From positions 1,426,001 to 1,490,000 of the forward strand of contig NZ_CP064655.1 in assembly GCF_018141525.1 (NCBI RefSeq): a DNA stretch of 64,000 nucleotides. The letters are read 5' to 3'. Under the pieces are notes generated by a model, which saw only the letters and a program-made list of their open reading frames with translations, did not search any database and was not told where the DNA came from. How positions within the stretch are numbered: the first letter of the stretch is position 1; the number at the start of each line of letters is the position of its first letter. This document shows, piece after piece, positions 39,593 to 56,216 of the stretch. A program made the position numbers and the translations under genes. Origin of the DNA: Miltoncostaea marina. Its GTDB lineage: Bacteria > Actinomycetota > Thermoleophilia > Miltoncostaeales > Miltoncostaeaceae.

Positions 39593-40180
39593 ATGATCCG
39601 CTCCGTCAGGGGGCGCGTGCTGGCGCACGAGACCGACGGCCCCGTGATCGAGGTCGGCGGGGTCGGGCTGCTGGTGCGCGTCTCGGCCACGACCGCCGGG
39701 TCGCTGCCCGCCCCCGGCGCGGAGGCGTCGCTGATGACCGTGCTCGTGGTGCGCGAGGAGTCGCTCGACCTCTACGGCTTCGCGACGGCCGCCGAGCGGG
39801 CGCTGTTCGAGGCGTTCACCACGGTGAGCGGGGTGGGGCCGCGGCTGGCGCTGGCGATCTGCGCGGTGGCCCCGCCGGACGAGCTGCGCCTGGCGATCGC
39901 GCGGGGCGACAGCGCGCGGCTGCAGGCGGCGAACGGCGTCGGCAAGCGCACGGCGGAGCGGCTGGTGCTGGAGCTGCGCGACCGCCTGGGGGCCCTCGAC
40001 GGGGCCGCGCCGGCGACCGGCGGCGGCGCGGCGGCCGACGCGCACCTGGCGGCGCGCGACGGCCTGGTGGCCCTCGGCTTCCGGGTCGACGAGGCCGACG
40101 CGGCGCTCGCGGACGCACCGGCCGGCCTCGACGCGGAGGGCCTCGTGCGGCACGGCCTCGGCCGCCTGCGGCGCGCATGA
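39593..40180 (+). CDS. ruvA: Holliday junction branch migration protein RuvA
   Basis: A 195-residue protein that binds four-way junctions as a tetramer and loads Ruv[31 protein letters not shown] is the N-terminal OB-fold, [15 protein letters not shown] and [21 protein letters not shown] are the paired helix-hairpin-helix motifs, and the C-terminal residues (about 150-195) form the RuvB-binding domain. It overlaps ruvB by ATGA. Confidence 0.95.
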
Positions 40181-41241
40181 GCGAGCCCGGCGCCTGGGGC
40201 ACCGACCCGGCGGCGGCCGGCCCGGAGGGCCGGCTGGCGTCCGGCGAGCCGATCGGGCCCGAGGACGACGTCGAGCGCTCGCTGCGCCCGCGCCGGCTGG
40301 GCGACTTCATCGGGCAGGACGCGGTCAAGCAGCAGCTCGCCATCTTCCTGCAGGCGGCGCGCCAGCGCGGCGAGGCGCTCGACCACGTACTGCTGGCCGG
40401 CCCGCCCGGGCTCGGCAAGACCTCGCTGGCCGGCATCGTGGCGGAGGAGCTCGGCGCCGGCTTCCACGTCACCAGCGGCCCGGTGCTCGAGCGCAAGGGC
40501 GACCTGGCCGCCGTGCTGACCGCGCTCGAGCCGCACGACGTGCTCTTCATCGACGAGATCCACCGCCTCAACCGGGCGATCGAGGAGGTGCTCTACCCGG
40601 CGATGGAGGACTTCCAGCTCGACGTCGTGCTGGGCCAGGGCCCCTCCGCGCGCACCCTGCGCCTCGACCTGCCGCGGTTCACCCTCATCGGCGCGACCAC
40701 CCGCACCGGCCTGCTCACCACCCCGCTGCGCGCCCGCTTCGGCGTCTTCCACCGGCTCAACTACTACGGCGCCGGGGAGCTCGCGGCCATCGTCCACCGC
40801 TCGGCCCGCCTGCTGGGCGTGGAGGTCGACGACGACGGCGCCGCCGCGATGGCGGCCCGCTCGCGCGGCACCCCGCGCATCGCCAACCGCCTGCTGCGGC
40901 GGGTGCGCGACGTGGCCCAGGTGCGCGGCGCGGCGCGCATCGACCGGGCGGTGGCCGAGGAGGCGCTCGAGCTGCTGGAGGTCGACGCGCTCGGCCTCGA
41001 GGAGCTGGACCGGCAGATCCTGCGCCGGCTGGCCGAGACCTTCGAGGGCCGGCCGGTGGGCCTCGGCACGCTCGCCGACAGCGTGGGGGAGGCCGCCGAC
41101 ACGATCGAGGACGTCTACGAGCCCTACCTCCTGCAGGAGGGCCTGCTCAAGCGCACGCCGCGCGGCCGGGTGGCCACGCCGCGCGCCTTCCGCCACCTGG
41201 GGCTCGACCCGCCGGCGGCCGAGCAGACGGGGCTCTTCTAG
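40177..41241 (+). CDS. ruvB: Holliday junction branch migration ATPase RuvB
   Basis: A 354-residue AAA+ motor. The start of the conserved region is [21 protein letters not shown], Walker A is [15 protein letters not shown], Walker B is [13 protein letters not shown], sensor 1 is [19 protein letters not shown], and the winged-helix C-terminus ends [23 protein letters not shown]. It pumps DNA through the RuvA tetramer. The ATG overlaps the ruvA stop. A hairpin follows the stop. Confidence 0.96.
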
Positions 41242-41250
41242 GCCCCGCGT

Positions 41251-41280
41251 CGGCGGGCGGGGGCGGTCGTCGCCCCGCCG
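41251..41280 (+). terminator. Hairpin after ruvB
   Basis: A GC-rich stem (41251-41265 with 41271-41280, loop GTCGT) lies 9 bp after the ruvB stop. No T-tract is present. It probably marks the end of the ruv transcript. Confidence 0.5.
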
Positions 41281-41334
41281 CGGCACGGGCGATGCCGTCT
41301 GGCGTCGTCCACCGGCGCCGGGTATCGTCGCCAC

Positions 41335-41745
41335 ATGGACCGATCCGTGAGCGAGGTGATGGCGGACGTCAAGGTGCGGCTGTCGCCGGACGACTCCATC
41401 CGCCGCGCCGCCGCCCGGCTGCGCGACGCCCGGACGGGGCTGGCGGTGGTCGATGCCGACGGGGGCGGCGTGTTCACGGAGCGCGATCTGCTGCGCGCGA
41501 TCTCCGAGGGCGTCGACCTCGACTCGGCTCGGGTCGGCGACCACATGACGCCGCAGCCGGTGGCCGTCTCGGCCGACACCACGCTCGGCGAGGCCTGCGA
41601 CCGCATGATCGAGCGGGGCGTGCGCCACCTGCTGGTGGCGGGCGCCGACGGCGCCGTGACCGGCGTGCTGAACATGCGCGACGTCGTGGGCGTGCTGTCG
41701 GGCGCCGCGGCGCTCGGCGCGGTGCCGCCCGCCCGCGGCTCCTGA
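41335..41745 (+). CDS. CBS domain-pair protein
   Basis: A 136-residue protein made of two CBS motifs: SVSEVMADVKVRLSPDDSIRRAAARLRDARTGLAVVDADG with FTERDLLRAI, and VGDHMTPQPVAVSADTTLGEACDRMIERGVRHLLVAGADG with LNMRDVVGVL. CBS pairs bind adenosine nucleotides (AMP, ATP, SAM) and act as energy sensors; the target is unknown. TATCGT (41323-41328) ends 6 bp before the ATG, so the mRNA is likely leaderless. Confidence 0.87.
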   Translation: MDRSVSEVMADVKVRLSPDDSIRRAAARLRDARTGLAVVDADGGGVFTERDLLRAISEGVDLDSARVGDHMTPQPVAVSADTTLGEACDRMIERGVRHLLVAGADGAVTGVLNMRDVVGVLSGAAALGAVPPARGS

Positions 41746-41761
41746 CCGGGGGCCGCCGGGC

Positions 41762-43033
41762 TCAGTCCTCCGGGCGGGCGTGCCCGGCCCGCAGCGCGGC
41801 CGGGATGTTGCGAACGAGCTCCACCGGGTTGCGCATCAGGTTGGCGCGCAGGCCCACCGGCGGCCGGTCGTCGCCCAGGCCGCCCTTCGCGGCCAGCACC
41901 TCGAGGTAGAGGGCCTCCACCCGGCGGGCGACCTCGCGCCAGGCGTAGCGCTCCACCGTCAGGCGCCGCCCCCGCTCGGCCCACTCGGCGCGGCGGGCGG
42001 GGTCGTCGAGCAGCTCCGCGATGCCGGCGGCCAGGTCGCGCGCGTCGTGCGGCCGCGCCCAGCGGGCCGGCATGCCGTCGCGGATCACCTGGCGGAAGCC
42101 GATGTTGTCGGCGCAGACGACCGGCGTGCCGCTGGCGGCGGCCTCCAGCAGCACCACGCCGAACGAGGCGAGCGTGCAGGGCGAGGCGAACACGTCGGCC
42201 TCGCGGTAGAGGCGGGGGCGCTCCTTGTCGACGCTGCCCAGCCACTGCACCCGGTCCCAGACGCCGAGCGAGCGCGCCAGGCGGTGGTAGCGGCGCCGCA
42301 GCGGGCCGTCGCCGGCCGCCTGGATCACGAAGTCGCGCCCCTCGTCCCGCAGGATCCGCGCCGCGGCCAGCAGCGTGTCGAGCCCGTTGCGCGGCTCCAG
42401 CCGCCCCATGAAGAGGATGCGCGGCGGTCCCGGCGGCCGCGGCTCGTCGCCGGCGAGCGGCCGGAACAGGTCGGTGTCGACCCCGTTCGGGATGATGTCG
42501 AACCGCTGCCCCCGGAAGTACGGGCTGAGCGCGGTGACGCACGCGTCGGAGACGGCGATGAGGCGGTCGGTGCGCGCCATCGTGCTGCGCACGTACGCGA
42601 ACAGGTGGCGGTAGCCCCAGTGGCCGCCCTCGAAGTAGGTGTGGAACGTCCCCACCCGCACGGGCGCGGTCGAGGCCCGCAGCGCCCAGAGGCAGATCGT
42701 GGGGTGGGCCAGGCCCTGGGCGTGGACCACGTCCATGTCACGCAGGGTGCGCGCGACGGCCGCCTTCAGGCCCGGGCCGACCGTGAGGCGGGCGATGGAG
42801 CCGTTGCCGTACACCGGCATGGAGAGGCCCATGCGCACCGTGCGGTAGCCGTGCTCGGCGAGGTTCTCGGCGTCGACCGCCCGCGCGCGCGCCTTGCGCC
42901 CGAACGGGGCGAGGCTCGTGACCACGGTCACCTCGTGGCCGCGGCGCGCCAGCTCGCGGCTGAGGTTGTGGGTGTGCTCCGACACGCCGCCGAGCACCGG
43001 GTAGGCGTACTCGGTGACCATCGCGATCCTCAT
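41762..43033 (-). CDS. Glycosyltransferase family 4 protein
   Basis: A 423-residue GT-B enzyme. MRIAMVTEYAYPVLGGVSEHTHNLSRELARRGHEVTVVT is the acceptor domain start, IIPNGVDTDLFRPL and RILFMGRLEPRNGLDTLLAAARIL start the donor domain, and VFASPCTLASFGVVLLEAAASGTPVVCADNIG carries the GT4 donor-binding E-x7-E-like region. Comparable enzymes make glycolipids such as phosphatidylinositol mannosides. It overlaps the upstream PAP2-family gene by ATGA, so a role in glycolipid synthesis is plausible (inference). Confidence 0.87.
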   Translation of the reverse strand: MRIAMVTEYAYPVLGGVSEHTHNLSRELARRGHEVTVVTSLAPFGRKARARAVDAENLAEHGYRTVRMGLSMPVYGNGSIARLTVGPGLKAAVARTLRDMDVVHAQGLAHPTICLWALRASTAPVRVGTFHTYFEGGHWGYRHLFAYVRSTMARTDRLIAVSDACVTALSPYFRGQRFDIIPNGVDTDLFRPLAGDEPRPPGPPRILFMGRLEPRNGLDTLLAAARILRDEGRDFVIQAAGDGPLRRRYHRLARSLGVWDRVQWLGSVDKERPRLYREADVFASPCTLASFGVVLLEAAASGTPVVCADNIGFRQVIRDGMPARWARPHDARDLAAGIAELLDDPARRAEWAERGRRLTVERYAWREVARRVEALYLEVLAAKGGLGDDRPPVGLRANLMRNPVELVRNIPAALRAGHARPED

Positions 43034-43788
43034 GCCGGTCGCCGCTCCCACGGGCGCGGCAGGCCGCCGGCCAGGCGGTCGGCGATCAGCAGGCCGAGCA
43101 GCACGGCGCCGAGCCCGCCGACGGCGTCGAGCCACCAGTGGTTGGCCGTGGCCATGACCACGTAGATCATCGTCGCGGGCCAGAGCAGGGCGAGCCAGCG
43201 CCACGGCGACGGGCGCAGCAGCCAGATGAGCGCCATCGCGAACAGGATCGTGTAGCCGCAGTGCATCGACGGCATGGCGGCGAACTCGTTGCGGAAGGGC
43301 TGGAACCAGGAGAGCGCGCCCCCCAGCTCGAGGCTCTCCTTCGTGGGGTCCTCCATCCCGAGCCCGGTCAGCCGCGGCGGCGCCAGCGGGTAGAGCCAGT
43401 AGCCGATCACCGCGAGCCCGTTCGTGATCCAGAACCAGTTGCGGAACATCGCGAAGTGCTCGCGGCGCCGGAACCAGACCCAGAAGAACATGACGACGAA
43501 GCCGGTCGTGTGGGCCAGCGTGTAGAACCAGGTGGTCGCGAACTCGACCGCGCCGATGGACAGCGTCCAGTCGTGCACGTCAGGCTCGATGAACAGGCCC
43601 AGCGCCTTCTCGAGGTCGACGACCTGCTCGGCGTGCCGGAGCGGCCGCTCGGGCGACGCGACCGCCACGAGGTCGCGGAGCCACTCGTAGGCGACCGTCA
43701 GGAGCAGGAAGAGGGCCAGCTCCGCCGCGATCGGCCACCGGGCGGACCAGACGCGCGCGAGCGGCGAGGGGCGTGCGGCGACCGTCAC
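43030..43788 (-). CDS. PAP2-superfamily membrane protein (inositol phosphorylceramide synthase-like)
   Basis: A 252-residue protein with about six membrane segments. It has AVIGYWLYPLAPPRLTG, then FAAMPSMHCGYTILFAMAL (catalytic His, motif C2) and ATANHWWLDAVGG (motif C3, His/Asp). This is the PAP2_3 arrangement of inositol-phosphoryl transferases and related lipid enzymes. The GTG at 43788 is chosen since TACCTT (43797-43802) ends 8 bp upstream. The following glycosyltransferase gene overlaps by ATGA. Confidence 0.82.
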   Translation of the reverse strand: MTVAARPSPLARVWSARWPIAAELALFLLLTVAYEWLRDLVAVASPERPLRHAEQVVDLEKALGLFIEPDVHDWTLSIGAVEFATTWFYTLAHTTGFVVMFFWVWFRRREHFAMFRNWFWITNGLAVIGYWLYPLAPPRLTGLGMEDPTKESLELGGALSWFQPFRNEFAAMPSMHCGYTILFAMALIWLLRPSPWRWLALLWPATMIYVVMATANHWWLDAVGGLGAVLLGLLIADRLAGGLPRPWERRPA

Positions 43789-43828
43789 GGCGGCGCAAGG
43801 TAGCACGCGTCCCGGCCGCCCCCGGGCG

Positions 43829-43869
43829 GGGTTCCGGCCGTCCCTGCGCGCCCGGGGATGACGGAACCC
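43829..43869. promoter_or_regulatory. Inverted repeat upstream of yajC
   Basis: GGGTTCCG (43829-43836) and CGGAACCC (43862-43869) are perfect inverted 8-mers 25 bp apart. They lie between the divergent PAP2 and yajC genes, and the second arm ends 5 bp before the yajC -10 (TATCGT, 43875-43880). They could be an operator or a hairpin followed by TTT. Confidence 0.4.
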
Positions 43870-43944
43870 TTTGCTATCGTCGCCCGCGCCGGGCGCAGGG
43901 AGGCCCGGTCGCTGACGGCCGCCCCCACGAGGTGAACCCGCCGA

Positions 43945-44241
43945 ATGGCAATCCTCCTGCCGATCTACATCATCCTGTTCATCGGGCTGATCTACCTGTT
44001 CGGCGTGCGCCCGCAGCAGAAGCGCCGGCGTGAGCTCGAGAACATCATGAACCGGCTCCGGCCCGGCGACGAGATCGTCACCGTCTCGGGCATCTACGGC
44101 ACGGTCAGCGAGATCGAGGACGGCGAGACGCTGCTCCTCGAGGTCGCGGAGGACACCGACATCCGCATCGCCAAGGCCGCCGTCGCGCGCGTCCTGACCC
44201 CCGCCGACGCGGTGGTCGCGACGCCCGGCGACGACGCCTAG
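43945..44241 (+). CDS. yajC: Preprotein translocase subunit YajC
   Basis: A 98-residue protein with one N-terminal membrane helix (LLPIYIILFIGLIYLFGVRPQQKRRRE) and a soluble domain with LRPGDEIVTVSGIYGTVSEIED, the standard YajC core. YajC joins SecDF in the accessory translocon that helps protein export. The -10 TATCGT leaves a leader of about 58 nt. secDF follows 17 bp later. Confidence 0.93.
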   Translation: MAILLPIYIILFIGLIYLFGVRPQQKRRRELENIMNRLRPGDEIVTVSGIYGTVSEIEDGETLLLEVAEDTDIRIAKAAVARVLTPADAVVATPGDDA

Positions 44242-44258
44242 CCGCGGGGCGCGGGCCC

Positions 44259-47113
<2,855 letters not shown>

Positions 47114-47117
<4 letters not shown>

Positions 47118-47458
47118 CCACCGTCCGCGAGGGCATCGAGCAGGCGATCCTGCTGTCGATCGGCGCGGCCGCGCTCACCCGCGAACGCGCCGAGACCGCC
47201 GTCGCCGAGCTCGTCCGCAAGGGGCAGCTCGGCACGGAGGAGGGCGCGGTGATCGTCGACCGGCTGATGGCCCGCGTGCGCGGCGAGGGCGCCCCGGCGG
47301 GCGGCATCGTCGGGCGCCTGGAGGGCGGGATGCAGGGGATCATGCGCGAGCTGGGCGTCGTCACGCGCGCCGAGCTCGACGACGTCCAGCTGCGCCTGGT
47401 GGAGATCGAGCACCGCCTGGCCCTGCTGGAGCGCGCCGCGGAGGCTGGCCCCGGCTGA
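47114..47458 (+). CDS. Phasin-like small coiled-coil protein
   Basis: A 114-residue all-helical protein. The N-terminal part (EQAILLSIGAAALTRERAETAVAELVRKGQLGTEEGAVIVDRLMARV) strongly resembles small phasin / polyhydroxyalkanoate-synthesis-regulator proteins, which bind granule surfaces. The C-terminus (ELDDVQLRLVEIEHRLALLERA) is a leucine heptad coiled coil. The ATG overlaps the secDF stop (ATGA). No PHA synthase is in the window, so the real partner is unknown; a membrane or granule role is possible. Confidence 0.65.
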
Positions 47459-47461
47459 GCC

Positions 47462-47483
47462 GCGGCCGGGCGCGCCCGGCCGC
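47462..47483 (+). terminator. Hairpin after the phasin-like gene
   Basis: GCGGCCGGGC (47462-47471) and GCCCGGCCGC (47474-47483) form a nearly loop-less perfect palindrome 3 bp after the stop. It probably ends the yajC-secDF transcript; there is no T-tract. Confidence 0.55.
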
Positions 47484-47558
47484 CTCAAGACGCGTGGGCG
47501 CCGCCCGATAGAGGGTCGACGGCCCCCGGACGCTGGGGCCACCGGCAACGGGGGACCC

Positions 47559-48125
47559 GTGCGCTACCGACTGGTGATCCTCGCCGCCCTCGTGGCGGGC
47601 GCGGCCTACGTGGTCGCCCGCGAGCGACGCCCCCCGACCCCGCCCGGGGCCGAGCGGTGGCCGCGCCCCGCCCCGGCCCCGGCCCCGGGGCCACTCGCCG
47701 GGCCGGCCGCCGCCCGGCCGGCCGCCGTCCGGCCGGCCGCCGACGAGCCGGCCGCCCTCCGGCTGGCCGTCGACGAGTCGGCGGCGGCCGCCGCCCCGGC
47801 CCGCGCGGTGCGCGCGGCGGGCCGCTTCTCGGCGGGCGGCTGGGCCGCCGCCGCGGGCCACTGGATCCCGTGCGGCGTCACCTTCCCAGCGCGGGCCGAG
47901 GACGGCGCCGAGGTCGCCGACATCCGCCTCCACGTGGAGGCGGCCTGCAACGTCGCCGAGGGCGGCCTCGTGGTGCTCGGCGACCCGGGCTTCGCGCCCG
48001 ACGGCGAGGGCTTCACCCTCGTGGTCGCGGCCGCCGGGTCCGGCGGCTTCGCGGCGTCGGGCCGGTACGAGCTCCTGGCCCCGGGGCCCGCGCCGGCCTC
48101 AACGTCCGGGCCCGGCTGCCGATAG
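47559..48125 (+). CDS. Membrane-anchored protein with C-terminal GFAP-type domain (paralogue A)
   Basis: A 188-residue protein. One N-terminal membrane segment (YRLVILAALVAGAAYVVA) is followed by a Pro/Ala-rich linker with AGPAAARPAAVRPAADEPAA repeats and a C-terminal domain of about 85 residues. That domain reads GRFSAGGWAAAAGHWIPCGVTFPARAE, LHVEAACNVAEGGLVVLGDPGFAPDGEGFTLVVAAAGSGGFAASGRYEL. The same domain ends the next protein. I recognise no family. Start is a GTG. The orientation (domain outside or inside) is not certain; the charged side after the helix favours the C-terminus staying in the cytosol. Confidence 0.65.
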   Translation: MRYRLVILAALVAGAAYVVARERRPPTPPGAERWPRPAPAPAPGPLAGPAAARPAAVRPAADEPAALRLAVDESAAAAAPARAVRAAGRFSAGGWAAAAGHWIPCGVTFPARAEDGAEVADIRLHVEAACNVAEGGLVVLGDPGFAPDGEGFTLVVAAAGSGGFAASGRYELLAPGPAPASTSGPGCR

Positions 48126-48195
48126 GGGGAGGGGGGCCCGCCGGCCCCCGCCCGACGACGCGGCGGACGCCGCGACCCCCAGGAGGCCGCCCGAC

Positions 48196-49644
48196 ATGTC
48201 GATCCTGAACATCGCCATCATCGGTGGCGTCGTCCTGCTGGTGCTCGTGCTCGTCAAGATCCGCCGCGACGCGCGGCGCGACGACGGCGGGTGGCAGGCC
48301 GAGGAGCCCATGCCGCTGGCCGCCGCAGCGGGCCAGACGGCCGCCGCGTCCGAGCTCGCCCCGCCGGCCGCCGCCGCGTGGCCGCCGCCGCCGGCCGAGT
48401 GGCCCCCGGCGCACGCCGTGCAGGCGGACGAGCCCGGGGCGCCCGCCGACGACGCGCTCCCGGCGGCGTCCGCATCCCCCGACGACGCGGCGGTGGGCGT
48501 GGGCCCGGCGGCCCCCGAGGCGCGCGAGCCCCTCCCCGGGGCCGAGGCCCCGTCCGGGCCCGGGGCCGAGGAGGCGCCCGCGGCGGCCGCGCCGCCGGTC
48601 GCGGCGTACGCCTGGGCCGACGACGAGCTCATCACCGAGCCCGGCTGGCCGATGCCCGGCGACCTCGACGTGGCGTGGGCGGCCGGGCCCTCCGACCCGG
48701 CCCCCGCGTGGGAGCGGCCGGCGCCCCAGCCCGCCTCGCCGCCCGCGGGGGTCGCCGACCCGCCGCCGTGGACCGCCCCGGCGGCCGAGGAGCCGCCGGC
48801 AGCCGGGCTCGAGTGGATGACCCACGACCCGGCCGCCGACGGCGACCCGCCCGCGTGGACGCCGCCCGCGGGCGGCGAGCCGGCGTGGACGCCCCCGGCC
48901 GCCGACGCGGCCGACGGCGGCATCCAGTGGACGGTCGCCGGGGAGCCCGCCGCGACCGCGGCCGGCGAGCCGGCCGGCCCGGCCGGGGCCGTCGCGGACG
49001 ACGCGTCGCCGGCCGAGATCCCCCTGTGGTCGCCGCCGGCGGACGCGGCGCCCGCCTGGAGCGCGACGGAGGAGCACGAGGAGCCCGCCCCGCCGGCCGG
49101 GATCCCGGTCTGGGAGCCGCCGGCCGACGCCGGGCCGCTCCCGGAGATCGACCTCGGCCCGGCGCCCGCCGCGGAGTTCGCGCTGCCCTCGCTCGCGGGC
49201 CCCGGCATCGACCTGGACCCGCCCGTCGAGGTGCGGGTGGAGCCGGCCCCGTCGCCCGCGTCGCCCGCCCACGGCGCGTCCGCCGCCATCGACGCGGCGC
49301 TCGCCGGGTCGCCGGCGCCCGCCGCGCCGGCCGACGACCCGGCCCGCACGGGCCGATTCGCGCTCGGCGGGTTCGCCGTGCAGGAGGGCCAGCAGGCCTA
49401 CGGCGGGGTGTCCTTCCGGGCCGAGCTCGACGAGGCGCCCGCCGGGTGGGCCGTCGCGCCCGCCGCGGACGCGCCGCGCGGCACGATCGTGCTCGCCCTC
49501 GAGGGCGCGCTCAACTGCGTCCCCGAGGGCCTCGAGGTGGTGACCGAGCCGGGCTTCGCGCCCACCCGGGAGGGCTTCACGGTGCGCCTCGCCGCCGCCG
49601 CGCCCGGCCCGTTCGCCGCGAGCGGCACCTTCACCGTGCGCTGA
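48196..49644 (+). CDS. Membrane-anchored Pro-rich protein with C-terminal GFAP-type domain (paralogue B)
   Basis: A 482-residue protein. A single membrane segment (ILNIAIIGGVVLLVLVLVKIRRDARR) starts it. A linker of about 350 residues, rich in Pro, Ala and Trp, follows, with W-x-P-P units such as PPAWTPP, EPAWTPP, IPLWSPP and IPVWEPP. The C-terminal domain (GRFALGGFAVQEGQQAYGGVSF, then LEGALNCVPEGLEVVTEPGFAPTREGFTVRLAAAAPGPFAASGTF) matches that of the preceding gene. The two are tandem paralogues with very different linker lengths. A strong hairpin follows. Not recognised as a known family. Confidence 0.7.
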   Translation: MSILNIAIIGGVVLLVLVLVKIRRDARRDDGGWQAEEPMPLAAAAGQTAAASELAPPAAAAWPPPPAEWPPAHAVQADEPGAPADDALPAASASPDDAAVGVGPAAPEAREPLPGAEAPSGPGAEEAPAAAAPPVAAYAWADDELITEPGWPMPGDLDVAWAAGPSDPAPAWERPAPQPASPPAGVADPPPWTAPAAEEPPAAGLEWMTHDPAADGDPPAWTPPAGGEPAWTPPAADAADGGIQWTVAGEPAATAAGEPAGPAGAVADDASPAEIPLWSPPADAAPAWSATEEHEEPAPPAGIPVWEPPADAGPLPEIDLGPAPAAEFALPSLAGPGIDLDPPVEVRVEPAPSPASPAHGASAAIDAALAGSPAPAAPADDPARTGRFALGGFAVQEGQQAYGGVSFRAELDEAPAGWAVAPAADAPRGTIVLALEGALNCVPEGLEVVTEPGFAPTREGFTVRLAAAAPGPFAASGTFTVR

Positions 49645-49656
49645 CCGCGTCCCGGC

Positions 49657-49689
49657 GACGGGGCCCGGCGCGGCAGGCCGGGCCCCGTC
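49657..49689 (+). terminator. Strong hairpin after paralogue B
   Basis: GACGGGGCCCGGC (49657-49669) pairs perfectly with GCCGGGCCCCGTC (49677-49689) around a 7-nt loop, 12 bp after the stop and before the ubiB promoter. There is no T-tract. Confidence 0.65.
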
Positions 49690-49714
49690 CGCGGGGGCTG
49701 CTACGTTGGCCCGC

Positions 49715-51358
49715 ATGGCGCGTGGCGAACGGCGGCAGAACCTGGCGCGTCTCGGCGAGATCGCACAGGTCGCCGCGCGCCACGGGTTCGGCTACGCGTT
49801 CGGCCGCAAGGAGGAGCCCGGCGCGCTCGAGGGCGAGCCCGCCGCGCGCACGCGCGGCCGCCGGCTGCGCGAGATGCTCGACGAGCTCGGGCCCACCTTC
49901 GTGAAGTTCGGCCAGCTGCTGTCGACCCGGCCGGACATCGTCCCGCCCGACATCCTCGTCGAGCTGCGGGGCCTGCAGGACGACGCCCGCCCCGAGCCGT
50001 TCGACCGCGTCCGCGCCGTGGTCGAGGCGGAGCTCGGCATGCGGATGGAGCAGGTGTTCCTCGAGTTCGACGAGCGGCCGATCGCCGCCGCCTCGATCGG
50101 CCAGGTGCACCGCGCGCGCCTGCCCGGGGGGCAGGAGGTCGTCGTCAAGGTCCAGCGGCCCGACGCCGAGCGCCGGCTGGCCGCCGACGTGCAGCTGCTG
50201 CACCAGGCGGCCCGCGTGGCGCGCGAGCGCATCCGGCGGCTGCAGTTCATCGACCTGGTGGGCGCGGTCGACGAGCTGGCCCGCACCGTGCGCCGCGAGC
50301 TCGACTACAACATCGAGGCGCGCAACGCGGAGGTCTTCCGCCGCAACTTCGCCGGCGACGAGACCGTGCTCGTGCCCAGGGTGTTCTGGCGCTACACCAG
50401 CGGCCGCGTGCTCACGATGGAGCGGGTGGAGGGCACGCCGCTGAGCCAGGTCGACCTCGGCGCGTGGTCGGCCGACGAGCGCCGCACGCTCGCCAACCGC
50501 CTCTGCGAGACGTGGATGCAGATGGTGTTCGTCCACGGCTTCTTCCACGCCGACCCGCACCCGGCCAACGTGCTGGTGCGCGGGCCCGACCGGCTGAGCC
50601 TGGTCGACTTCGGCATGTCCGAGCAGCTCTCGCCGCGCGACCGCGAGGCGGCGGTGCGGCTGCTGATGGACATCCTCAACCAGGACGCCGAGCGCCTGCC
50701 GCGCCGCCTGCGCGCGCTGGGGGTGCGCTACCCGCGACAGATGGAGGAGGAGCTCGCCGAGCGGCTCGGCGTGATCCTGCAGCGCTACTCGGCGAGCGCG
50801 ATCGGCGAGATCGACGCGCGCGAGGTGCTGCGCGAGATCTTCGGCACCATCTACCGGCTCGACATCACGCTGCCGGCGCGCTGGGTGATGCTCGACAAGA
50901 CGCTCGCCACGCTCGCGGGGGTGGCGCTCGAGATCTACCCGGGGTTCAACGTCTTCGAGGTCGCCCGGCCCTACGCGATGCGCATGGCCGCGCAGCGCTT
51001 CCGGCCCGACCGCATCGCCGACCGGGTGCGGATCGACGCCGGCCGCTACGCGGAGGCGATGCTCGACTACCCGTTCCAGCTCTCCGAGCTGCTCGACGAG
51101 TTCAAGGACGGCGACATCGAGATCCGCATCCGCCCCGAGGGGTGGAGCGACGCGGTCGAGAAGGCCCAGGCCAGCGCCAACCGGCTGGCGCTGGCCGTGA
51201 TCGGCTCGGCGCTGCTGATCAGCTCGGCGCTCATCTCGGTGTTCGCCCAGTCGGCCGACCTGGCCGGCCTCGCGCTGATCGGGGTGCCGAGCGCCCTGCT
51301 CGGGTTCGCCATCGTCGGCTGGCTCTGCGCCGGCATCTTCCGGTCGGGCCGCTGGTGA
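49715..51358 (+). CDS. ubiB: ABC1/UbiB family atypical kinase
   Basis: A 547-residue protein of the AarF/UbiB/ADCK group. FVKFGQLLSTRPDIVP has the KxGQ motif, FDERPIAAASIGQVHRA the A-rich loop, VVVKVQRP the ATP lysine, ELDYNIEARNAEVFRRNF the ExD motif, and FFHADPHPANVLV plus LVDFGMSE the catalytic and metal sites. The C-terminus has two membrane helices (about 495-540). Members support quinone synthesis or lipid homeostasis by an ATPase activity. TACGTT (49702-49707) ends 7 bp before the ATG (leaderless). recJ overlaps the stop by GTGA. Confidence 0.92.
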   Translation: MARGERRQNLARLGEIAQVAARHGFGYAFGRKEEPGALEGEPAARTRGRRLREMLDELGPTFVKFGQLLSTRPDIVPPDILVELRGLQDDARPEPFDRVRAVVEAELGMRMEQVFLEFDERPIAAASIGQVHRARLPGGQEVVVKVQRPDAERRLAADVQLLHQAARVARERIRRLQFIDLVGAVDELARTVRRELDYNIEARNAEVFRRNFAGDETVLVPRVFWRYTSGRVLTMERVEGTPLSQVDLGAWSADERRTLANRLCETWMQMVFVHGFFHADPHPANVLVRGPDRLSLVDFGMSEQLSPRDREAAVRLLMDILNQDAERLPRRLRALGVRYPRQMEEELAERLGVILQRYSASAIGEIDAREVLREIFGTIYRLDITLPARWVMLDKTLATLAGVALEIYPGFNVFEVARPYAMRMAAQRFRPDRIADRVRIDAGRYAEAMLDYPFQLSELLDEFKDGDIEIRIRPEGWSDAVEKAQASANRLALAVIGSALLISSALISVFAQSADLAGLALIGVPSALLGFAIVGWLCAGIFRSGRW

Positions 51359-53946
51359 GCTGGCGCGCGCGGCGGGTGGCGTTCGCCGAGGTGGCGGCGC
51401 TGCAGGAGGCGCTGGAGGTGCCCGAGCCCGTGGCGTGGGCGCTCGTGCGCCGCGGCCTGGGCGACCCGGCGGCGGCGCGCGAGTTCCTGGCCTCCGACGG
51501 CGAGCTGGCGCCGGCAGAGGACCTCGCGGGCGTCGGCGCCGCCGCGGACCGGCTGGCGCGGGCCGTGCGGGCGGGCGAGCGCGTCGCGGTGCACGGCGAC
51601 TACGACTGCGACGGCGTCTGCTCGACCGCCATCCTGGTGTCGGCGCTGCGCGGGCGCGGCGGCGACGTGCGGCCGTTCCTGCCGAGCCGCTTCGACGAGG
51701 GGTACGGCGTCGCCGTCGGCACCGTCGAGCGGCTGGCCGCCGAGGGCGCGCGGCTGCTGGTGTGCGTCGACTGCGGCACCTCGGCGCTGGAGGCGCTCAC
51801 CCGCGCGACCGACCTCGGCATGGACGTCGTCGTGCTGGACCACCACCTCGCGGGCGGGCGGCGCCCGCCGGGCATCATCGCCAACCCCGCGCTCGGGCGG
51901 CCGCCCGACGACCTGCCGGCCGCCGCCGGGGTGGTGCACATGGTGGTGCGGGCGCTCGCGGCCCGGCTCGACGGCGGGGGCCTCGCGCCCGACCCCGACG
52001 AGTGCATGGACCTCGTGGCGCTGGCGACCGTCGCGGACGCCGTGCCGCTGGTGGGCGACAACCGGCGACGGGTGGCCCGCGGCCTGCGGATGATCCGCGA
52101 GGCGCCACGGCCCGGCATCGCGGCCCTGTGCGCCGCGGCGGGCCTCGAGCCGCGGGTGGTGAGCGCCCGGTCGCTCGGCTTCACGCTCGGTCCCAGCATC
52201 AACGCGGCCGGCCGGCTGGCCCACCCGGAGCGCGCGCTGGAGCTGCTGCTCGCGGCCGACCGCGAGACCGCCGACCCGATCGGCGCGGAGCTGTGGGCGC
52301 GCAACGCCGAGCGGCGCGAGGTGGAGCGGGCGATCGTCGACGAGGCGGTCGCGATGGTCGAGGCCGAGCCGGAGCACATCCGCGCCGCGGGCGTCGTGGT
52401 GGCTGCCGGCGACGGCTGGCACGAGGGCGTCGTGGGCATCGTGGCCTCGCGCCTGGTCGAGCGCTTCGAGCGCCCGGCGATCGTGCTCGCCCGCCAGGGC
52501 GGCACGGCGAAGGGCTCGGGGCGCAGCCTGCCCGGCGTCGACCTGCACGCGCTGGTCGACGCGGCCTCGGCGCCGCTGCTGCGCTGGGGCGGCCACGCCG
52601 GCGCCGTCGGCCTGGAGCTGCCGGCCGACGCGGTGGCCCGCTTCCGCGACGAGCTGATCGCGGCGGCCGAGGGCGCCCGGGCGGCGATCGCGCGCGCCCG
52701 CGTGCGGCCGGTCGACGCCGTGGTGGGCGGCCGCGACCTGACGCTCGCCACCGCCGAGGCGCTCGAGGCGCTCGCGCCGTTCGGCCGGGGCAACCCGCCG
52801 GTGCGGCTGGTGGTGCCGGGCGCCGCGGTGGAGTCGCCCGGTCGTGTGGGGCAGGGGCGGCACCTGGAGGTGCGGCTGCGTACCGGCGGCGTGCACGCGC
52901 GCGCGATCGGCTTCCGGATGGGCGAGCGGGCGGCCGGCGTCGACCCGGAGGTGCGCCACGACGCCGTGGTGTCGCTGGAGGTGGAGCGCTGGCAGGGCCT
53001 GGTGGGCCCCCGGGTGGCGCTCGACGCGCTGGAGCCGCTGGGCCCGGGCGAGCCGCTGCCCGGCATGTGCGCGCGGCCGTGCGACGCCGCGTGCCCGGAG
53101 CGGCGCGGCATCGACGAGCTGCGGGCGATCGTGGAGGAGGAACCGGCGGTGGCGACGCCGCCCGGCCACGCCGGCGACCCCGCCGGGGTGCGCGACCGGC
53201 GCGGCGAGGGCGCGTCGCTGGCCGCCATCGCCGCCCTGGCCGGCGCCGACCGCGGCGTGGTGGCGGTCGTGTCCGACACCGCGCGCCGGCGCGAGGCGCT
53301 GGTCGCGGCGCTCGAGCCGGCCCGCCTGGGCCTGGAGGTGGCGGTGCTCGGCGGCGCGCGCTGCGACCCGGGGGCGCTGGCGATGCGCCTGGCCCGGGCG
53401 CGGGGCGTGCCCGCGATGGCGATGCTCGACTACCACGCGCTGGCCGAGGTGGAGCCCCCCGAGGGCGTCCACATCGTGCTCGTCGACCCGCCCGCGGGGC
53501 CCGAGGAGGCCGCCTGGGCGCTGCACCGGGCGGCCGGCCGCTGGCTCCACCTGGTGTGGGGCGAGGCGGAGACGGAGCTGGCGCTCGCGGTGGCCGAGGC
53601 GGAGTGGGAGCTGCGCCCGGCCGCCGCCGCGGTGTGGACGGCGCTGCGCGACGGCGCGCCGCGCCCCTGGGGGCCGGAGCTGGAGCGCGCGCTCGTGGGC
53701 GACGGGGCGTGGTCGCGGCCGCCGCGGGTGGCGGCCCGGGCGCTCGCCGTGCTTGCCGAGGTGGGCCTGGTGGAGGTCGGCGAGGACGGCGTCCGCGCGA
53801 CGGCAGACCCCGACCGGCGCGAGCTCGACGGCTCGCCGCGCTACCGGGCGTGCCGCGAGCGGCTCGAGGAGGCGCGCCGCTACCTGGGGCTGGCGCCGAC
53901 CCTCGACCTGCGGACGGCCGCCGCGGAGGCCGCGCTCATCGGCTGA
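51355..53946 (+). CDS. recJ: Single-stranded-DNA-specific exonuclease RecJ, with long C-terminal extension
   Basis: An 863-residue 5'-3' ssDNA exonuclease. Conserved motifs are HGDYDCDGVCS (DHH motif I), VCVDCGTS, VVLDHHLAGG, ALATVADAVPL and the DHHA1 region with SGRSLPGVDLHALV and GGHAGAVGLEL. An OB-fold follows (about 480-560). The last 300 residues go beyond the size of E. coli RecJ (577). They start with a cysteine cluster (MCARPCDAACPERRG, about residue 569), then an alpha/beta region (VVAVVSDTARRREALVAAL, VHIVLVDPPAGPEEAAW) that resembles a helicase-like core without a P-loop, and a helical end. The GTG overlaps the ubiB stop. Confidence 0.92.
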   Translation: MSWRARRVAFAEVAALQEALEVPEPVAWALVRRGLGDPAAAREFLASDGELAPAEDLAGVGAAADRLARAVRAGERVAVHGDYDCDGVCSTAILVSALRGRGGDVRPFLPSRFDEGYGVAVGTVERLAAEGARLLVCVDCGTSALEALTRATDLGMDVVVLDHHLAGGRRPPGIIANPALGRPPDDLPAAAGVVHMVVRALAARLDGGGLAPDPDECMDLVALATVADAVPLVGDNRRRVARGLRMIREAPRPGIAALCAAAGLEPRVVSARSLGFTLGPSINAAGRLAHPERALELLLAADRETADPIGAELWARNAERREVERAIVDEAVAMVEAEPEHIRAAGVVVAAGDGWHEGVVGIVASRLVERFERPAIVLARQGGTAKGSGRSLPGVDLHALVDAASAPLLRWGGHAGAVGLELPADAVARFRDELIAAAEGARAAIARARVRPVDAVVGGRDLTLATAEALEALAPFGRGNPPVRLVVPGAAVESPGRVGQGRHLEVRLRTGGVHARAIGFRMGERAAGVDPEVRHDAVVSLEVERWQGLVGPRVALDALEPLGPGEPLPGMCARPCDAACPERRGIDELRAIVEEEPAVATPPGHAGDPAGVRDRRGEGASLAAIAALAGADRGVVAVVSDTARRREALVAALEPARLGLEVAVLGGARCDPGALAMRLARARGVPAMAMLDYHALAEVEPPEGVHIVLVDPPAGPEEAAWALHRAAGRWLHLVWGEAETELALAVAEAEWELRPAAAAVWTALRDGAPRPWGPELERALVGDGAWSRPPRVAARALAVLAEVGLVEVGEDGVRATADPDRRELDGSPRYRACRERLEEARRYLGLAPTLDLRTAAAEAALIG

Positions 53947-54005
53947 CGACGCCCGCCCACCGGGCGGCGTGCGGGCTCCGTCGACGGTCGCGGTACAGTC
54001 GACCC

Positions 54006-56216
54006 ATGGCGAAGGACCTCGCAGACCTCGACCTCGCGCTCGCGCCCGAGGTCCCCGACCTCGAGCAGGTCATCCTCGAGGTGGCCGAGCGACACCCCGA
54101 CGTCGACCGCGACGCGATCCGGCGGGCGTACCGCTACGCCGAGGAGCGCCACCGCGAGCAGGTCCGCAACTCGGGCGAGCCCTTCATCACGCACCCGCTC
54201 GGCTGCGCGCGCATCTGCGCCGGGCTGGGGCTCGACGCCACGGCCGTCATCGCCGCCCTGCTGCACGACACGGTCGAGGACACGAGCGCGACGCTCGAGG
54301 AAATCACGCGCGAGTTCGGCGCCGAGGTCGCCTCGCTGGTCGACGGGGTCACGAAGCTGTCGAAGATCCACTTCGAGAGCCGCGAGGAGCACCAGGCCGA
54401 GAACTACCGCAAGCTCATCGTCTCGATGTCGAGCGACATCCGCGTGCTGGTCGTGAAGCTCGCCGACCGGCTGCACAACATGCGCACGCTCGCCTACATG
54501 ACGAAGCCGAAGCAGATCCAGAAGGCCAAGGAGACGCTCGAGATCTACGCGCCGCTGGCGCACCGCCTCGGCATCCACTCCCTCAAGTGGGAGCTCGAGG
54601 ACCTGGCCTTCGCCACGCTGCACCCGCGGCGCTACCGCGAGATCCAGCAGATGGTCAACCAGCGCCGGCCCGACCGCGAGGCCTTCATCGCGGACGCCGG
54701 CCGCATCCTCGCCGCCGAGCTCGAGGAGGTCGGCATCACCGGCGTGGAGATCACCGGGCGGGCGAAGCACTTCTACTCGATCTACGAGAAGATGACCCGC
54801 AAGGGCAAGGAGTTCAACGAGATCTACGACCTCACCGCGATGCGGGTGCTGGTCGACTCGGTGAAGGACTGCTACGGCGCGGTGGGGATCATCCACTCGC
54901 TCTGGAAGCCGCTGCCCGGGCGCTTCAAGGACTACATCGCCATGCCCAAGCTCAACATGTACCAGAGCCTGCACACGACGGTGATCGGTCCCGGGGGCAA
55001 GCCGCTCGAGATCCAGATCCGCACCTACGCGATGCACGCCACGGCCGAGTACGGCGTGGCCGCCCACTGGCTCTACAAGCAGGGGGCGGGCGGCGAGCAG
55101 CCGGCCTGGGTGTCGCGGATGATGGACTGGCAGCGCGAGACCCACGACCCCAGCGAGTTCCTCGAGGCCCTGCGCTCGGACCTCTACTCCGACGAGGTCT
55201 ACGTCTTCACGCCGAAGGGCGAGGTGCGGGCCCTGCCCGCGGGCGCGACGCCGCTCGACTTCGCCTACGACGTGCACACCGACGTCGGCCACCGCTGCGT
55301 CGGCGCGAAGGTCAACGGCCGCATCGTGCCGCTCACCTACACGCTGCAGTCGGGCGAGTTCGTCGAGATCCTCACCTCCAAGTCGCCGCGCGCGCCGTCG
55401 CGCGACTGGCTGCAGCTGGTCACCACCACGAAGGCGCGCTCCAAGATCAGCCAGTTCTTCCGCCGCGAGCGGCGCGAGGACGCCGAGCACCGCGGCCGCG
55501 AGGCCCTGCAGGACCAGCTCCGCAAGGCCGGCCTGCCCAGCCAGCGGGTGGCCGGCTCGCCGATGCTGCTCGAGGTCATCCAGGAGATGGGCTTCAAGCG
55601 GGCCGACGAGTTCTACATCTCGCTGGGGCTCGGCAAGACCTCGGTCCAGACCGTGGTCAACAAGATCATGCAGCGGCTCAAGACCGGGCAGGCCGTGCCC
55701 GACACGCCGGCCCCGGCGGGGGTCACGCCGCGCGGGCGGCGGCCGCACACGGCGACGGCATCCAGCGAGCTCGGCATCGAGATCGAGGGCGCCTCCGACG
55801 TCCTGGTGCGGCTCGCGAAGTGCTGCAAGCCGGTGCCGGGCGACCCCATCCTGGGCTACATCTCGCTGGGGCGCGGCATCACCATCCACCGCGAGGACTG
55901 CCCCAACGCCAAGGCCCTGATGAAGAGCCCCGAGCGCTTCACCCCGGTCCACTGGGCGGGCGCCAACCAGCAGTCCTTTCGGGTCGAGATCGCCGTCGAC
56001 GCCTGGGACCGTGCCCGCCTCCTCGAGGACCTCTCCCGCGCCTTCGCCGAGGCGGGCGTGAACATCGTCTCGGCCAACTGCTCGATGGAGGACCAGATGG
56101 TCCACGACCGCTTCACCGTCGACGTCGGCGACGTGGAGACGCTCAAGTCGTGCATCTCCGGCCTGCGGCAGGTGGAGTCCGTCTTCGACGCCTACCGGGT
56201 GACGCCCGGCACGTAG
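54006..56216 (+). CDS. rsh: Bifunctional (p)ppGpp synthetase/hydrolase RelA/SpoT
   Basis: A 736-residue stringent-response enzyme. The HD hydrolase domain has HPLGCARICAGLGLDATAVIAALLHDTVEDT and DRLHNMRTL. The synthetase domain has FYSIYEKMTRKGKEFNEIYDLTAMRVLV and YIAMPKLNMYQSLHTTV with EIQIRT. TGS is at about 400-460 (VYVFTPKGEVRALPAGATPLDFAYDVHTDVGHRC). The zinc/RIS region has VRLAKCCKPVPGDPILGYISLGRGITIHREDCPN, and the ACT domain ends the protein. Both activities look intact, so one enzyme probably makes and degrades (p)ppGpp. TACAGT (53994-53999) ends 6 bp before the ATG (leaderless). Confidence 0.96.
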   Translation: MAKDLADLDLALAPEVPDLEQVILEVAERHPDVDRDAIRRAYRYAEERHREQVRNSGEPFITHPLGCARICAGLGLDATAVIAALLHDTVEDTSATLEEITREFGAEVASLVDGVTKLSKIHFESREEHQAENYRKLIVSMSSDIRVLVVKLADRLHNMRTLAYMTKPKQIQKAKETLEIYAPLAHRLGIHSLKWELEDLAFATLHPRRYREIQQMVNQRRPDREAFIADAGRILAAELEEVGITGVEITGRAKHFYSIYEKMTRKGKEFNEIYDLTAMRVLVDSVKDCYGAVGIIHSLWKPLPGRFKDYIAMPKLNMYQSLHTTVIGPGGKPLEIQIRTYAMHATAEYGVAAHWLYKQGAGGEQPAWVSRMMDWQRETHDPSEFLEALRSDLYSDEVYVFTPKGEVRALPAGATPLDFAYDVHTDVGHRCVGAKVNGRIVPLTYTLQSGEFVEILTSKSPRAPSRDWLQLVTTTKARSKISQFFRRERREDAEHRGREALQDQLRKAGLPSQRVAGSPMLLEVIQEMGFKRADEFYISLGLGKTSVQTVVNKIMQRLKTGQAVPDTPAPAGVTPRGRRPHTATASSELGIEIEGASDVLVRLAKCCKPVPGDPILGYISLGRGITIHREDCPNAKALMKSPERFTPVHWAGANQQSFRVEIAVDAWDRARLLEDLSRAFAEAGVNIVSANCSMEDQMVHDRFTVDVGDVETLKSCISGLRQVESVFDAYRVTPGT

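Follow-up and report, generated by a model that had tools for sequence, protein, structure and literature searches.

Among described proteins, the C-terminal domain of the pair reported here is closest in predicted fold to the H-type lectins (PF09458), represented by the C-terminal domain of discoidin I and II and by the agglutinins of Helix pomatia and Helix aspersa. The same fold class is found in the ends of phage tailspikes and tail fibres and in the R-pyocin foot (LKA1 gp49, KP32gp38 LEC and AP22 gp53), where it is C-terminal and follows a long stalk. In the R-pyocin and AP22 feet an H-type-lectin-like fold forms trimers, and sugar binding has been proposed for their distal loops (PMC6363177). 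The lectin-like domain of KP32gp38 is reported to be necessary and sufficient for trimerisation, and according to the same paper the domain alone forms more than 25-mers, trimers being found only together with the preceding domain (PMC13082707). FlhE and a protease domain are named as further cases of the fold in the LKA1gp49 paper (PMC5701251). In the papers examined, lectins and phage fibres are the main sources of H-type-lectin-like domains.

ZipA is a described protein with a related layout. It has a helix with the N-terminus outside, a disordered, Pro-rich stalk that is first basic and then acidic, and a globular C-terminal head.

We describe two adjacent genes of Miltoncostaea marina, here called P1 and P2. 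The window is the whole analysed stretch of 64,000 nucleotides of contig NZ_CP064655.1, and all positions refer to it. The P1/P2 domain superposes in its predicted form on H-type lectins, but it has no Pfam match, its sugar-site loops are short in the model and it is predicted to be cytoplasmic on a membrane stalk. With the phage fibre ends it shares fold class and C-terminal position after a long stalk; the genes are, however, chromosomal, no tail gene is among the named neighbours and the stalk is predicted to be disordered rather than fibrous. P2 shares with ZipA the N-out helix and the charged, Pro-rich stalk, judging from the charge pattern and the full-length P2 model, whereas the predicted head fold and the neighbourhood differ and no sequence relation was found. 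No ZipA chain was among the best 50 matches listed, either in the Foldseek search or in the re-alignment.

Results

The gene pair and its shared domain

The two open reading frames are tandem neighbours, as the original prediction had described them, and in this genome each encodes a single hydrophobic N-terminal segment followed by a stalk and then by the same domain (Table 1). The stalks differ in length as claimed, and the common C-terminal domain comprises about 90-98 residues. The alignment of the two domain copies scores 149, whereas shuffled sequences average 32 (z 19.9). Masking of Ala and Gly, a check named beforehand as a refuting test, left a score of 69 against 24 (z 9.5), and masking of Ala, Gly, Pro and Ser gave z 7.8. 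The score was reached by none of 2000 shuffles in any of the three comparisons. A low-complexity artefact is ruled out by both maskings together with the codon-level selection given below. The adjacent paralogue pair with a common C-terminal domain is confirmed as a genuine observation. The genome is 3.37 Mb in a single contig, and P1 and P2 carry the only copies of the domain found in it.

Table 1. Positions of the P1 and P2 genes and their features in the window
Feature	Position	Strand	Basis or remark
P1 gene	47559..48125	+	GTG start, 188 aa; relatives have homologues at the corresponding locus
P1 hydrophobic segment, residues 5-21	47571..47621	+	Kyte-Doolittle 17-residue mean 2.19
P1 stalk, Pro/Ala-rich, about 63 residues	47622..47810	+	[LV]xEW repeats in several relatives, none in Miltoncostaea marina P1
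Shared C-terminal domain, P1 copy	47811..48080	+	Domain searches, alignment, shuffle tests
P2 gene	48196..49644	+	ATG start, 482 aa; relatives have homologues at the corresponding locus
P2 N-terminal membrane helix and basic end, residues 3-28	48202..48279	+	Charge count, full-length model
P2 stalk, disordered, acidic, Trp/Pro-rich, about 355 residues	48280..49344	+	Sequence, model
PMPL motif, just past the basic block of P2	48307..48318	+	In 8 of 13 assessable P2 stalks
Conserved P2 stalk motif DDELITEPGWPMPGD	48619..48663	+	PGWP core present in all 13 P2 stalks that could be assessed
Shared C-terminal domain, P2 copy, predicted H-type-lectin-like beta-sandwich	49348..49641	+	Alignment, structure model
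Strong hairpin after P2, without T run	49642..49700	+	z -4.26 against shuffles

Predicted fold and sequence libraries

The single-chain AlphaFold model of the domain, made from 22 sequences, is a six-stranded beta-sandwich (pLDDT 95.8, pTM 0.84) with strands at residues 2-12, 18-24, 35-38, 48-57, 78-85 and 89-99. The full-length P2 model has a helix at residues 3-28, chiefly low confidence at about 30-380 and the domain strands at 385-481, with block means of at least 92. Foldseek gave a best E-value of 5.8e-3 against the PDB and none below 1e-3. When these PDB matches were re-aligned, the nearest solved chain among the matches listed was discoidin II (rmsd 1.9 over 79 residues), with a Z of 8.4 that lies just above the value near 8 at which a common arrangement can be all that is seen. 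Discoidin I was second among the matches listed (Z 8.0, rmsd 2.2, 79 residues), the Helix agglutinins had Z 6.2-6.8 (Helix aspersa 6.8, Helix pomatia 6.7) and phage or pyocin fibre ends had Z 6.6 and lower. The top lectin rows have 9-14% identity to the domain. Two matches in a viral model library fell below an E-value of 1e-3, one of them an uncharacterised phage protein and the other a minor tail protein, and tail-fibre and 'H-type lectin domain' proteins were among the lower rows. Nucleophosmin cores were rejected as a candidate; Foldseek gave them low probability and a TM of about 0.3-0.37, and they were not among the best 50 re-aligned matches.

Against six H-lectin sequences, hhalign found little similarity (probability 8 and 16%). 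The weak alignment pairs GVSFRAELDEAP with SVTFPKPFPQVP of an H-lectin, a segment that is the lectin 'VTF...P' stretch. None of the 34 domain members matched PF09458 in hmmscan. Because sequence-level support is weak, the domain is named H-type-lectin-like by its predicted fold and is not taken as a member of PF09458. Among 296 genomes of the phylum, three had H_lectin (PF09458) itself, all outside Miltoncostaeaceae; a search of three genomes from the class of G325 gave only the already known H_lectin locus, and the H_lectin seed had no match in phages.

No known sequence family was found for the pair in Pfam, NCBIfam, PHROGs (best E-value 0.07, for P1) or the PDB sequences. P1 scored 10.7 bits against DUF6893 (PF21833), with residues 5-21 only and a curated cut-off of 24.6. 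A weak single-sequence PDB match of RpfB (E 0.27, residues 5-43) was discarded, as it was not repeated by the profile search. The literature on Miltoncostaea, Miltoncostaeaceae and the H-type lectin fold in the library searched yielded no description of P1/P2 proteins. The view that no family has this pattern holds for the sequence, which is outside all libraries searched, but not for the fold, since the prediction resembles H-type lectins and the C-terminal domains of phage tail fibres. Both the architecture and the sequence family are without precedent in these libraries, whereas the predicted fold is a known one.

Gene neighbourhood

The gene order is yajC-like ORF, secDF, phasin-like ORF, P1, P2, ubiB, recJ and relA/spoT. 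ORF 43945-44241 is one that we take to be yajC; secDF occupies 44259-47117 and the phasin-like ORF of 114 aa 47114-47458. The pair thus lies between Sec accessory genes and ubiB, as originally described, and the neighbourhood check extended this to relatives. Copies were found between secDF and ubiB/recJ in all 13 genomes, out of 18 positive ones, that have both flanks on one contig (G000, G001, G002, G004, G005, G006, G007, G010, G011, G013, G017, G018 and G022), with recJ instead of ubiB in G011. The other five (G003, G009, G015, G019 and G024) have contig breaks, and their visible flanks are consistent with placement between secDF and ubiB. G011 carries a very divergent short version, a 182-aa open frame at L051 6647-7195 between secDF and recJ, without ubiB there.

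Sixteen negative loci were fetched and the distance from the phasin-like gene to ubiB was counted in 12 of them, L100 and L106 being too short, L096 lacking ubiB and L104 lacking both ubiB and the phasin-like gene. In genus g10, where the domain is missing, the slot is empty and the distance is 25-61 bases (11 genomes); in G008, also without the domain, it is 233 bases. Immediate placement of ubiB upstream of recJ was seen in none of 19 out-of-family loci.

Several features of the flanking sequence were recorded. The phasin-like ORF, which is near ubiB and present in 13 of the 16 loci without P1/P2, matches NF047773 with an E-value of 1.7e-6, below the cut-off. Its C-terminal stretch has a weak likeness to the BMFP family (PF04380, E 0.025), which includes UbiK. 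The end of the fused SecDF (46700-47117) has a long acidic low-complexity tail followed by the basic 'RRHRNVQRRRRR', and similar SecDF ends occur in several g10 relatives, e.g. 'RERRHSQVKKRRRR'. Upstream of yajC, on the minus strand, 43030-43806 encodes a membrane protein with a weak match to phosphoinositol dihydroceramide synthase (NF052609, E 7.5e-5, well short of the cut-off), and because of this match its product is perhaps a PAP2-like lipid enzyme. Directly 3' of the phasin-like gene there is a GC-rich hairpin (47456-47500) without a T run, which is not clearly beyond shuffles (z -1.34). This hairpin and the likewise GC-rich one at 49642-49700 may bound a P1-P2 unit. Rfam gave no match in 40000-56000, and no sigma-70-like promoters were found in 43000-52000.

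The neighbourhood raises the reading that P1 and P2 are accessory subunits of the Sec holo-translocon (SecDF-YajC) and act as an extra YajC. The position downstream of secDF in all 13 two-flank genomes agrees with it, as does the predicted N-out/C-in topology, which is that of YajC. The reading is nevertheless unlikely, considering that the g10 locus is without the pair, that the strong hairpin after P2 and the weaker one after the phasin-like gene may separate the pair from its neighbours and that some relatives have no helix.

Membrane topology and sugar-site loops

In all 12 P2-type proteins with a visible helix there is no Lys or Arg before the 17-residue helix window and there are 5-15 in the next 40 residues, counted from start codons of our choice. 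The bias is weakest in Miltoncostaea marina P2, with five Lys/Arg and six Asp/Glu in the 40 residues, and in G010 an Arg is the first residue of the helix window. P2 of G018, whose frame is without a helix and whose N-terminus looks frame-broken, was excluded from the count. Most P1 helices, that of Miltoncostaea marina included, are flanked by Arg on either side, and the charge rule is therefore ambiguous for P1 alone.

Of 14 P1 rows two were left out, G003 because it is cut by a contig end and G007 because its helix is in another frame, likely through an assembly frame break. A hydrophobic N-terminal segment is missing in any frame from six of the 12 assessable rows (G006, G009, G015, G018, G022 and G024), a count to be read with the fact that most relatives are MAGs, in which frame breaks can hide N-termini, as in G007. 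The segment is present in frame in G000, G001 (weak), G002, G010, G013 and G017. The clearest case is P1 of G006 (L059 6123), which starts behind an AAGGAGG ribosome site and is scarcely more than the bare domain. A cytoplasmic head is favoured because the basic block of P2 follows the helix, with none before it, and because six P1 relatives are free of a helix; judged from these charges and frames the C-terminal domain of P1/P2 probably lies on the cytoplasmic side.

At the sugar-site end of the model the loops look short, about 5, 7 and 3 residues by strand order. No conserved Trp/His pair was found at the position of 'TWHNTKVY' in the Helix agglutinin, where most rows read like AAxxGPFAAS, and three P1 rows have a His near the agglutinin-site position (register by eye in both cases). 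Among the residues of the domain that are invariant or nearly so are glycines in loops and the Asn that follows strand 4. Short loops in the model and the lack of a conserved Trp/His pair make sugar binding less likely, although the loops of the R2 pyocin foot are nearly as short.

The original prediction, which is supported in part, had offered two possibilities, a membrane-tethered display and a scaffolding pair, and the second of these is the reading tentatively preferred in the Discussion. A true lectin pair outside the cell, with the helix as signal anchor, the stalk crossing the wall and the head binding surface or foreign sugar, would fit the best-ranked structural neighbours, which are sugar-binding lectins or phage adhesins, and the Pro/Ala-rich stalk, which looks like a wall-spanning linker; P1 with its Arg on both sides of the helix is not decisive alone. 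The basic block of P2, found after the helix and not before it, predicts the C-terminus inside, and the six P1 relatives are without a helix in any frame, so that display is unlikely. The model loops also compare with 22, 12 and 9 residues in the Helix agglutinin, but those of the R2 pyocin foot, 4, 9 and 4 in Table 2, are nearly as short (PMC6363177). Taken with all of this, a displayed lectin pair is distinctly improbable.

A tether in the manner of ZipA, joining a cytoskeletal or division protein to the membrane, would account for the layout of N-out helix, basic and then acidic Pro-rich stalk and C-terminal globular domain that P2 has in common with that protein. Such a family was not matched in Pfam or NCBIfam, the predicted head is a lectin-like sandwich and no division gene is among the named neighbours, and we see little likelihood in it.

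The lectin-like fold and the predicted cytoplasmic side could also be combined in a cytoplasmic protein binding a sugar or glycolipid at the membrane, e.g. a storage glycan or a precursor of the wall. The position of the Trp/His pair of the agglutinin is not conserved, though a His is nearby in three P1 rows, and conservation falls instead on loop glycines and the Asn after strand 4; such a role is very unlikely.

Distribution, duplication and selection

The profile of 34 domains matched 18 of 42 genomes of Miltoncostaeaceae, with a weakest best match of 1.1e-24. Outside the family, in a class sample of 299 genomes, the sole match at an E-value of 0.01 or below was in G266; it was partial (positions 2-44, E 0.003) and is taken as chance rather than as a true relative. 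All five matches at 0.001 or below in a phylum sample of 396 genomes were family members. The class search scored no more than 17 first-look candidates per genome and the phylum search no more than 12, so that distant relatives could be missed. With a single sequence and a loose limit (E up to 1) 71 of 101 relatives were matched, those outside the family at 0.0035 or worse. Within the genomes sampled the domain family was found only in one bacterial lineage, Miltoncostaeaceae, as far as these profile searches indicate, and the P1/P2 pair is missing from the largest genus of the family.

The P2 domain had no tblastn match in 50,697 phage records and no match in plasmids, and the alignment A2 gave 31 pattern matches in viral contigs of which none was confirmed. 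A mobile origin was rejected on these results, which also set the domain apart from the phage fibre ends.

In a tree of the 34 domains, one branch with support 100/99 separates all P2/P3 copies, together with G004 and G005, from all P1 copies, together with G011. The placement of the long rows G011, G004 and G005 is unsure. The third domain copies of G006 and G017 are on the P2 side of the tree. These third copies are in tandem and have their own hydrophobic N-terminal segment (L059 8374-9297 and L062 8197-9129). If the root lies on the 100/99 branch, the duplication is older than the sampled genera, and P1 and P2 would then derive from a duplication that predates them. In the RecJ tree the 14 negative g10 rows form one clade, and the branching at the base of the family is not settled by the tree. 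The RecJ tree fits both a later gain of the pair and its loss from g10, G008 and G014.

Five comparisons gave a dN/dS of 0.07-0.20 for the domain, and one comparison gave 0.42 for the P2 stalk with helix. Judged by these ratios, the domain is under purifying selection. That P1 and P2 are open frames produced by very high GC and not true genes, as the 80-86% GC of the region and the long antisense frames might suggest, is ruled out by the homologues in 18 of 42 family genomes and by nucleotide changes chiefly in the third codon position (3, 3 and 28 in one pair) at the low dN/dS given above, and the confident fold prediction also speaks against it, which leaves this reading virtually no chance.

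Stalk motifs

Of 18 P2-type rows 13 were counted for stalk motifs; G009, G015 and G019 were dropped because they are open to the contig end, G004 because it has no helix and G011 because of its short stalk. PGWP occurs once in each of the 13 stalks against 0.4 expected in total, and PGWPxPG in 12 of them, G010 being the exception. The visible parts of the five dropped rows contain no PGWP. The repeated W-x-P-P units that had been noted in the longer linker are enriched in Miltoncostaea marina P2, with five against 0.75 expected from shuffles, and across the 13 stalks there are 16 against 6.35 expected, yet in six of the 13 only. The enrichment in this genome therefore stands, but the conserved element of the P2 stalk is PGWP. 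A search for partner proteins with PGWPxPG in the same genome gave two further DNA matches, both in frames that by eye appear to be non-coding.

The P1 stalks, for which up to 230 open-frame residues ahead of the domain were used, contain 23 [LV]xEW against 0.67 expected. Twenty-one of these are in G001, G002, G003, G007, G009 and G018, and the motif is missing from Miltoncostaea marina P1 and from five other P1 rows.

Discussion

The reading that we tentatively prefer, while giving it somewhat less than even odds, is that the paralogues P1 and P2 act as scaffold proteins attached to the cytoplasmic membrane on its inner side, probably with trimeric heads and with partner-binding motifs in the stalks. 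Homology, selection, synteny, conserved motifs and an old duplication are established for the pair, and its fold, disordered stalk and topology are predictions. Both proteins would be anchored by a short N-terminal helix, N-out and C-in, and the basic block of P2 would keep the start of its stalk at the membrane. The long, acidic, Trp/Pro-rich disordered stalk of P2 would bear short binding motifs, PGWP being the candidate, and the repeated LxEW may be binding motifs in P1 of several relatives. The H-type-lectin-like C-terminal domain would serve as an oligomerisation head. Comparison with the structural neighbours suggests a trimer as the likeliest state, and trimeric heads would bundle several stalks into one multivalent hub at the membrane. 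The analogy with KP32gp38 leaves the number of subunits unfixed, because the isolated domain of that protein forms more than 25-mers.

Trimerisation, motif-mediated partner binding and any tie to the adjoining Sec genes are what we infer in this scaffold reading. Against it, Miltoncostaea marina P1 is without LxEW and the proteins of G004 and G011 are without PGWP. A more specific form of the scaffold reading is speculative and rather unlikely. It describes a lineage-specific cytoplasmic scaffold in which a trimerisation module of the tail-fibre/lectin type has been reused as a membrane-tethered intracellular hub; a client, at the Sec locus or at some other place on the membrane, would be recruited by the multivalent motifs of the stalk.

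If the scaffold reading is true, the H-type-lectin-like fold would serve as an intracellular oligomerisation head in bacteria. P1 and P2 would provide a pair of marker proteins for an actinobacterial family that has been little studied, and the PGWP stalk motif would give a handle for finding partners.
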